Of a stretch of 64,000 bases of DNA, positions 55,803-57,242 are shown in pieces. The stretch is from Profundibacter amoris. Its GTDB lineage: Bacteria; Pseudomonadota; Alphaproteobacteria; Rhodobacterales; Rhodobacteraceae. The stretch covers positions 3,176,001-3,240,000 of the forward strand of contig NZ_CP032125.1 in the NCBI RefSeq assembly GCF_003544895.1. Direction: 5' to 3'. The notes under the pieces were generated by a model. That model was given only the letters and a program-made list of their open reading frames with translations. It was not told where the DNA came from and did no database searches. Position numbers and translations under genes: made by a program. Positions within the stretch are counted from its first letter, which is position 1, and each line of letters opens with the position of its first letter.

Positions 55803-56024
55803 ATGAAAAAAGATATTCACCCCGACTACCACACAATCAACGTCAAAATGACCGACGGCACGATTGTAGAAATGAAATCGACCTACGGGACCGAAGGCGA
55901 AACAATGTCGCTGGAAATCGACCCGTCGGTTCACCCCGCCTGGACCGGCGGCGGCACCCGTTTGATGGATGCCGGTGGCCGTGTGTCCAAGTTCAAAAAG
56001 AAATACGAAGGGCTTGGCTTCTAG
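55803..56024 (+). CDS. rpmE: 50S ribosomal protein L31
   Basis: L31, 73 residues: [19 protein letters not shown] at the start and [21 protein letters not shown] at the end. The zinc-binding CxxC of type C+ L31 is absent, so this is the zinc-free form. It closes the operon that begins at ffh or rpsP and is followed by a terminator. Confidence 0.95.
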
Positions 56025-56047
56025 GCCATATCCCCCTTTCGGATTTG

Positions 56048-56081
56048 AAAACGCCGCACTGGAAAACAGGGCGGCGTTTTT
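56048..56081 (+). terminator. Rho-independent terminator of the ribosomal operon
   Basis: AAAACGCCGC (56048-56057) pairs with GCGGCGTTTT (56071-56080) and runs into T. It lies 24 bases after the rpmE stop. Confidence 0.9.
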
Positions 56082-56100: not shown

Positions 56101-56253
56101 TCACCACCCGTTGGGTGTGCACACAATGCCATCCGGACCGGTGGTAATAATCCATGCCCCCGGACCGCAGGGGCCATCAGTTGGTTCGACCGGTGGTTCC
56201 GTCTCGCATCCGGCAAGCATAAATACACTGGAAAGCAACCAAAGAAGTTTCAT
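56101..56253 (-). CDS. Small lipoprotein, 50 residues
   Basis: A short gene on the minus strand. AGGAGGTAG stands 5 bases before the ATG, one of the best ribosome sites in the window. The product has a lipoprotein signal (MKLLWLLSSVFMLAGC) with lipobox LAGC at residues 13-16, so the mature lipid-linked peptide is only 35 residues: a Glu/Pro-rich start (ETEPPVEPTDG), then two further cysteines and TTGPDGIVCTPNGW. I recognise no family, but the short entericidin-like and Rhodobacterales small lipoproteins look similar. It is convergent with rpmE and divergent from mipZ. Function unknown. Confidence 0.8.
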   Translation of the reverse strand: MKLLWLLSSVFMLAGCETEPPVEPTDGPCGPGAWIITTGPDGIVCTPNGW

Positions 56254-56429
56254 AATCTACCTCCTGCAATAAACACTGCTGATAATTCCGCCTTTATAAC
56301 ACAGGATGCCAAATACTCGTAATTCGCAGTAATAGAGCCTGATCACGGCTTCCCATAAGCCAAGCCACTGCATATAGTGCCCATAGCGCACTGGGGCGCA
56401 GTATTAGCGAATGAACGGGGTGTATTGTT

Positions 56430-57242
56430 TTGGCGCATATTATTGTTGTGGGGAACGAAAAGGGTGGCTCGGGTAAATCGACCACCTCGATGCATGTGGC
56501 AACGGCACTGGTCCGGATGGGCCATAGTGTTGGCGCGCTGGATCTGGATTTGCGGCAACGCACCTTTGGCCGCTATGTCGAAAACCGCCGCACCTATTGC
56601 GAAACCCATGATGTCAAACTGCCGATGCCAGATTACCACGACCTGCCGGATGTGGATCGTGCCAAACTGAAGCCGGGCGAAAATGTTTACGACCATCGTC
56701 TGTCAGCCGCCGTTGCTACGCTGGAGCCGGACAATGATTTCATTCTGATCGACTGTCCCGGGTCGCACACCCGATTGTCACAGGTGGCCCATTCGCTGGC
56801 CGACACATTGATCACCCCGCTGAACGACAGCTTTGTCGATTTCGACCTGCTGGCGCATATGGATCCGGATAGCGGTAAAATCCTCAGCCCTTCTGTCTAT
56901 TCCGAAATGGTCTGGAACGCGCGGCAATTGCGGGCGCAGGCCGGATTGCCCTCTATTGACTGGGTGGTGGTGCGCAACCGTCTGGCCGCACAGCGGATGC
57001 ACAACAAGGAAAAGATGGAGCAGGCCCTGAATGCCCTGTCAAAACGTATCGGTTTTCGCATCGCACCGGGGTTTGGCGAGCGGGTCATTTTCCGTGAACT
57101 TTTCCCGCGCGGCCTGACCCTGCTGGATTTGCGCGATGTCGGCGTCAAAGGGCAGATGAATATTTCCAATGTCGCCGCCCGTCAGGAGCTGCGCGAACTG
57201 ATGAAGGCGCTGAATTTGCCGGGGGTTTCGGTGAATTTCTAG
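56430..57242 (+). CDS. mipZ: Division-plane positioning ATPase MipZ
   Basis: ParA/MinD-family ATPase of alphaproteobacteria that binds ParB at the poles and keeps FtsZ rings at mid-cell, 270 residues. It shows the deviant Walker A GNEKGGSGKST (about residues 9-19), DLDLRQRTFGRYVENR, the MipZ fingerprint, and VDFDLL near residue 135. The only plausible start is TTG: an in-frame stop lies 6 codons upstream and no ATG or GTG comes between. A GGGG ribosome site is about 10 bases away. It appears monocistronic. Confidence 0.94.
   Translation: MAHIIVVGNEKGGSGKSTTSMHVATALVRMGHSVGALDLDLRQRTFGRYVENRRTYCETHDVKLPMPDYHDLPDVDRAKLKPGENVYDHRLSAAVATLEPDNDFILIDCPGSHTRLSQVAHSLADTLITPLNDSFVDFDLLAHMDPDSGKILSPSVYSEMVWNARQLRAQAGLPSIDWVVVRNRLAAQRMHNKEKMEQALNALSKRIGFRIAPGFGERVIFRELFPRGLTLLDLRDVGVKGQMNISNVAARQELRELMKALNLPGVSVNF

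Follow-up and report, generated by a model that had tools for sequence, protein, structure and literature searches.

Gene Content and Signals of the Locus

The window, i.e., the whole 64-kb stretch of DNA which was analyzed, contains a small ORF at positions 56101–56253. Its neighbors are read as rimM, trmD, rplS, rpmE, and mipZ, names which we assume and whose order matches annotated Paracoccus. For the two genes flanking the ORF, presumably rpmE and mipZ, the Paracoccus annotation as "L31" and "ATPase" agrees. The following features were assigned:

55803–56024, plus strand: rpmE (ribosomal protein L31), convergent neighbor
56047–56081, no strand assigned: hairpin in the gap between rpmE and the lipoprotein gene, probably a shared two-way terminator
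56101–56253, minus strand: lipoprotein coding sequence of 50 residues, stop included (ORF, homologues, frame-specific constraint)
56113–56154, minus strand: predicted beta-hairpin, residues 34–47, including Cys45 (AlphaFold block with pLDDT 80–89; Cys45 invariant in six of six)
56158–56184, minus strand: motif PTDGPCGPG, residues 24–32, including Cys29 (invariant in six of six full-length homologues)
56206–56208, minus strand: lipobox cysteine, residue 16, lipidation expected (invariant in six of six full-length sequences, lost in the locus L107)
56209–56253, minus strand: signal peptide, residues 1–15 (MKLLWLLSSVFMLAG), assigned from the sequence
56259–56265, minus strand: Shine-Dalgarno sequence AGGAGGT, 5 nt 5′ of the ATG, seven of seven positions matching
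56430–57242, plus strand: gene for a ParA-type ATPase, presumably MipZ-like, divergent neighbor

The 50-codon ORF encodes the protein MKLLWLLSSVFMLAGC-ETEPPVEPTDGPCGPGAWIITTGPDGIVCTPNGW. The original prediction had placed a 50-residue ORF between rpmE and mipZ without naming its strand; it is found there on the minus strand, and reading 56101–56253 on the plus strand does not give the protein. A positive start, a hydrophobic stretch and a lipobox cysteine near residue 16–20, as expected of a lipoprotein, are all present in MKLLWLLSSVFMLAGC. The protein contains three cysteines (positions 16, 29, and 45), and the mature peptide starting with Cys16 comprises 35 residues. The lipobox LAGC with Cys16, the number of cysteines, the length of the mature peptide and its two cysteines are all as had been claimed, and the near-perfect Shine-Dalgarno sequence which had been proposed matches the full AGGAGGT.

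A rule asking for 35–80 codons, a charged start, a hydrophobic stretch, a lipobox, and a Shine-Dalgarno match of at least 5/6 was written after the ORF had been seen; under this post hoc rule the ORF 56101–56253 is the only one to qualify in the 64-kb window, and 60 dinucleotide shuffles gave a mean of 0.07 qualifying ORFs, with one in 4 of the 60. The hairpin at 56047–56081 has a folding energy of −21.6 kcal/mol on the plus strand (z −6.0) and −18.9 kcal/mol on the minus strand (z −5.3); a simple terminator scan called nothing at this position. A promoter scan found no minus-strand site for the lipoprotein gene.

Homologues and Their Distribution

Exact back-translated patterns were searched in 84,980 species, each represented by a single genome, a scan which reaches close relatives only. 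It yielded six loci, namely five full-length copies and one chance match. Four of the full-length homologues, each from a different genome, are located in the rpmE-mipZ gap (L032, L033, L035, and L036; the first two are the loci of the genomes G003 and G007) and the fifth (L034) lies elsewhere, next to what we take to be oxidase-like and PhnA-like genes. The genome of L034 has a mipZ locus (3.8 kb) without rpmE. Three of the homologue genomes are labeled Marinosulfonomonas, a genus label in common with L034, and L036 stems from a Rhodobacteraceae bacterium. Records bearing the gene include WGBJ01000414.1, WFNH01000103.1, JALSJL010000281.1, JALSRG010000075.1, and JALVEX010000293.1.

In the six full-length sequences, including that of the window, the lipobox cysteine, both cysteines of the mature peptide, and PTDGPCGPG-x-W are invariant, the lipobox reads LAGC or LAAC, and all length differences are whole codons. 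The Shine-Dalgarno sequence is matched at seven of seven positions in the window and L032, at six in L033, and at five in L034, L035, and L036. A degenerate seventh copy was found by searching around the genome of L035. This copy, L107 of genome G430, is also located in the rpmE-mipZ gap; compared with L036 it is 17 codons shorter, a gap which takes in most of the hydrophobic stretch, lipobox, and tether, and its last cysteine is replaced by serine. The family signature of a lipobox, two mature cysteines 16 residues apart, and PTDGPCGPG-x-W is therefore found in six of the seven copies. The original prediction had been staked on relatives with the same gene order keeping the frame and the lipobox. 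Among the six loci with the order rpmE, lipoprotein gene, mipZ (window, L032, L033, L035, L036, and L107), five keep the frame, the lipobox, and all three cysteines, whereas in L107 the lipobox and the final cysteine are gone together, a joint loss in keeping with a lipoprotein gene. The homologues sought in Rhodobacterales exist as the four full-length copies in the gap, but wide conservation was not found.

Within the genus, three of eight genomes match; of the five without a match, three are just 66–85% complete. The family was sampled across its genera with 394 genomes, of which 43 give a match at E up to 0.01; the window genome scores 99.9 bits, G007 102.1 bits, and the other 41 at most 24.1 bits. 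At E up to 0.001, 11 of 390 genomes of the order match, the window's own strongly and the remaining ten with 21.5–23.3 bits, and in 385 genomes of the class the single match at E up to 0.0001 is the window's own. Thirty-six genomes of a further search in 61 match at E up to 1, but only G000, G003, and G007 fall below 1e-14, and the rest reach 0.035 or worse. The 120 relatives of the L034 genome (itself included) contain a match in that genome only. Among 60 relatives of the L035 genome there are four matches, namely the genomes of L035 and L036 themselves, G430 with its degenerate copy at 33.1 bits, and a fourth genome at 21.6 bits. These genome samples overlap, and faint relatives could be missed by the family, order, and class searches, since in most genomes only 17 first-look candidates were scored.

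Thirty rpmE loci were also read directly. In 14 of them mipZ lies within 1.4 kb, and the lipoprotein gene is present in 3 of these and absent from 11. In a further relative, G429, rpmE and mipZ are close neighbors and the lipoprotein gene is absent. Beyond the genus, the samples of the family (394 genomes), the order (390), and the class (385) contained no further convincing homologue. The lipoprotein family was thus found to be narrow and lineage-specific, carried by a small group.

Weak matches were judged to be chance by the gap in E-values and by spot checks rather than by inspecting each one. Ten weak loci of the 61-genome search were inspected in the frames of one strand. Of the weak loci of the family search, 28 (L039–L066) were screened by motif, and among them L047 alone contains DGPCGPGAW, which is there a shadow frame of a different protein with an AHEMGH stretch. 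Reading in six frames showed that none of the weak family and order matches L039–L042, L046, L121, and L122 belongs to the lipoprotein family. Three more weak-match loci proved to be something else: one presumably encodes a protein of the membrane-fusion type, another is a shadow frame of what is taken to be a MutL-like gene, and the third seems to encode another lipoprotein. L037 (Spirochaetota) is a match of 13 residues only, outside any lipoprotein. A tblastn search of plasmids gave two weak matches (E 0.1 and 0.9), which were taken as chance, and two hypothetical genes annotated in the rpmE-mipZ gap of a Paracoccus ferrooxidans plasmid (L109:1846–2297, minus strand) are unrelated by eye.

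Coding Evidence and Selection

Substitutions were counted by the Nei-Gojobori method. Between L032 and L033, 10 changes fall on 37.7 synonymous sites and 8 on 112.3 non-synonymous sites (one-sided p 0.003). The synonymous excess has a p of 0.02 (0.027 in a recount) between the window and L032 and of only 0.06 between the window and L033; for the mature part of the L032-L033 and window-L032 pairs the p values are 0.0005 and 0.005. Of the six frames, the proposed one has the lowest pN/pS, with 0.50 over all pairs, 0.27 for L032 and L033, and 0.57 for the window and L032, where the runner-up has 0.59. Variable columns number 29, 25, and 45 (each of 49) at codon positions 1, 2, and 3. In the signal peptide pN/pS lies between 0.53 and 1.3 in 14 of 15 pairs and reaches 3.65 in one. 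The constraint is located in the mature peptide, and the signal peptide varies freely. Synonymous change is hence in excess in the reading frame, which had been named as a check. Together with the invariant mature cysteines, this bears out the reading as a protein-coding lipoprotein gene, and by sequence comparison the ORF 56101–56253 is confirmed as a real gene.

The conserved element could instead belong to the opposite strand, either as a plus-strand ORF at 56111–56272 (reading PGPQGPSVG) or as a non-coding element. The antisense frame runs through the gene without a stop in five of the six homologues, its pN/pS of 0.61 is the second lowest after the sense frame, and a phage collagen-like gene has similar letters on its other strand. 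However, a stop codon interrupts the frame in L035, and in the window it begins at TTG; since antisense and sense third positions coincide, a shadow of the sense-frame constraint is also passed on to it. A search of Rfam gave no match, which argues against a non-coding element. A conserved opposite strand is thus scarcely conceivable.

Counting against the coding evidence, the flanking non-coding DNA, i.e., the mipZ leader and the terminator, is visibly better conserved among the window, L032, and L033 than the gene, which indicates that the gene evolves quickly. The leader at 56254–56430 probably holds divergent promoters. Its mipZ-proximal part is nearly identical in L032 and L033, exceeding the conservation of the gene. 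An upstream frame on the minus strand (56257–56391) looks partly conserved in these two loci, but an 11-nt insertion shifts its start side and nothing similar was seen by eye in L035 and L036; it was therefore treated as leader or promoter DNA.

The gene might also be dispensable and decaying across the lineage, a drifting leftover which is being lost and has no present role in some carriers. The patchy presence (three of eight genus genomes), the degenerate copy L107, the rpmE close to mipZ without the gene in G429, and the freely evolving signal peptide all fit such a course. The three cysteines and the nine-residue motif are nevertheless unchanged in the six full-length copies and the mature part is under purifying selection in the pairs tested, so that decay is considered rather unlikely.

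Comparison With Known Lipoproteins

In Pfam, the matches consist of lipobox models and chance matches, all below the cut-off, e.g., LPAM_1 with 12.9 bits against a cut-off of 20. In NCBIfam, single members give weak matches with a best E of 0.036. A search of the PDB returned nothing below E 0.19, and Foldseek against the PDB nothing below E 6. A lipoprotein family in the rpmE-mipZ gap is not described among the literature matches listed for Marinosulfonomonas, small lipoproteins, and alphaproteobacterial small proteins, and the string TDGPCGPG was not found in the literature searched.

The best PHROG matches are Rz-like spanins, which are weak (E 0.008 and 0.009) and cover residues 4–41 and 1–45, reaching into the mature part. 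The gene could accordingly be an outer-membrane spanin of phage origin, either captured or solitary, as Rz1-like spanins are short proline-rich lipoproteins too. Nine controls with a shuffled mature part all gave poorer scores (best spanin score 0.067), but seven of the nine still matched some spanin PHROG via the signal peptide (0.067 to 0.4, within E up to 1). Furthermore, 50,697 phage records contained no match at E up to 1, and the sole match on a viral contig (L127) lies antisense to a phage collagen-like gene. The lipoprotein also differs from Rz1-like spanins in its conserved cysteine pair and its housekeeping-like neighbors, which by their presumed names do not form a lysis cassette. 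A phage origin of this kind is regarded as highly improbable. The viral locus itself (L127:2–2104, minus strand, IMG/VR) encodes a long collagen-like protein with GXY repeats, whose reverse strand mimics GPCGPGAW.

LptM (formerly YifL) is described in an excerpt of PMC10567701 as a lipoprotein of about 6 kDa which helps LptD gain disulfides. The lipoprotein described here resembles it as a tiny lipoprotein with a short mature part and no Asp after the lipobox cysteine, the LptM side of this comparison being taken from the same excerpt. It would be conceivable that it likewise regulates or assembles an outer-membrane complex, as LptM does on the LPS translocon, since it is of the same size class and anchored in the same way as LptM in that account. 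However, none of the six members has PF13627, the LptM lipobox motif, among its listed families at E up to 1, a range in which most matches beyond about 0.1 are removed by the HMMER filters. In contrast to LptM, the conserved cysteine pair sits in the peptide itself, and LptM-type genes are reported across Proteobacteria (excerpt of PMC10567701) whereas the present family was found in seven genomes. Such a patchy presence is unlike that of a partner of an essential complex, and an LptM-like role seems very unlikely.

Entericidin A/B lipoproteins, e.g., Atu8019 of A. tumefaciens, named in an excerpt of PMC10117765, are similar in their length of about 50 residues, in being lipoproteins and in occurring in Alphaproteobacteria. 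The present protein differs from them, as the entericidin models of Pfam and NCBIfam did not match it at E up to 1.

Predicted Structure and Proposed Function

Two AlphaFold2 runs, one with the window protein in first place and one with the L035 protein, drew on an identical set of six sequences and are therefore not independent. Both predict a C-terminal two-strand beta-hairpin (window residues 34–39 and 42–47), a block with a pLDDT of 80–89 which carries Cys45. The confidence of the whole models is moderate (mean pLDDT 72–73, pTM 0.32–0.34). The genome encodes a DsbB-family protein (125 bits, above the cut-off).

In E. coli, lipoproteins without Asp at position +2 are sorted to the outer membrane. 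The residues at +2 in the six members are E, A, T, A, Q, and V, with no Asp among them, and by this rule the outer membrane is predicted. For LptM, the outer-membrane placement is argued by the same reasoning in the excerpt of PMC10567701.

Signal peptidase II would cut before Cys16, which would then be lipidated, and the Lol system may carry the lipoprotein to the outer membrane. There, the short proline-rich stretch could serve as a tether, and a putative disulfide between Cys29 and Cys45, made by the periplasmic Dsb system, would close a small beta-hairpin knob. This knob would most likely be a small binding element touching one outer-membrane or periplasmic partner, with an accessory rather than a core role, a view which we hold weakly. 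Overall, we consider it likely that the ORF is a true orphan gene restricted to this lineage and that its product is a tiny lipoprotein of the outer membrane, with a proline-rich tether and a hairpin probably closed by a disulfide, its function being inferred. The gene is unlikely to be functionally linked to rpmE or mipZ, as the L034 copy is located elsewhere and many relatives lack it although their rpmE lies next to mipZ.

A more far-reaching reading, which appears doubtful at present, takes the protein as the founding member of an undescribed minimal lipoprotein family. A lipid, a proline tether, and one disulfide closing a 17-residue loop (hairpin) might then be a complete functional outer-membrane protein, gained and lost by a few Rhodobacteraceae and serving a dedicated partner.

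Annotation of Small Lipoprotein Genes

The gene is an ordinary orphan small lipoprotein gene and a modest addition, which is worth annotating and not surprising. It illustrates how comparison can establish a tiny ORF, first spotted by eye, as a gene, and with the three cysteines and PTDGPCGPG-x-W the small family gains a fixed, testable signature. It had also been claimed that length filters miss the gene. The lower length limit of common gene callers is about 90 nt, and for current pipelines the claim may therefore fail. Small lipoproteins are a recognized blind spot; prokaryotic annotation often misses lipoproteins, as stated in an excerpt of PMC10117765 citing Omasits et al. (2017).

Other short lipoprotein-like ORFs were encountered among the weak matches. 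At the locus centers of L120, L123, L124, and L126, which come from four genomes of a different genus within the Rhodobacteraceae, lies a different small lipoprotein family (MKKLVVLGVLVALAAC...DDWCQLTG...LVSCPTG), which has only the signal peptide style and the prolines in common with the present one. An unrelated short lipoprotein-like ORF (MMRRYLTLVALMLTLAACQGG...DATCVEGVTCLP), likewise with two further cysteines, is located on the reverse strand at the center of L121.
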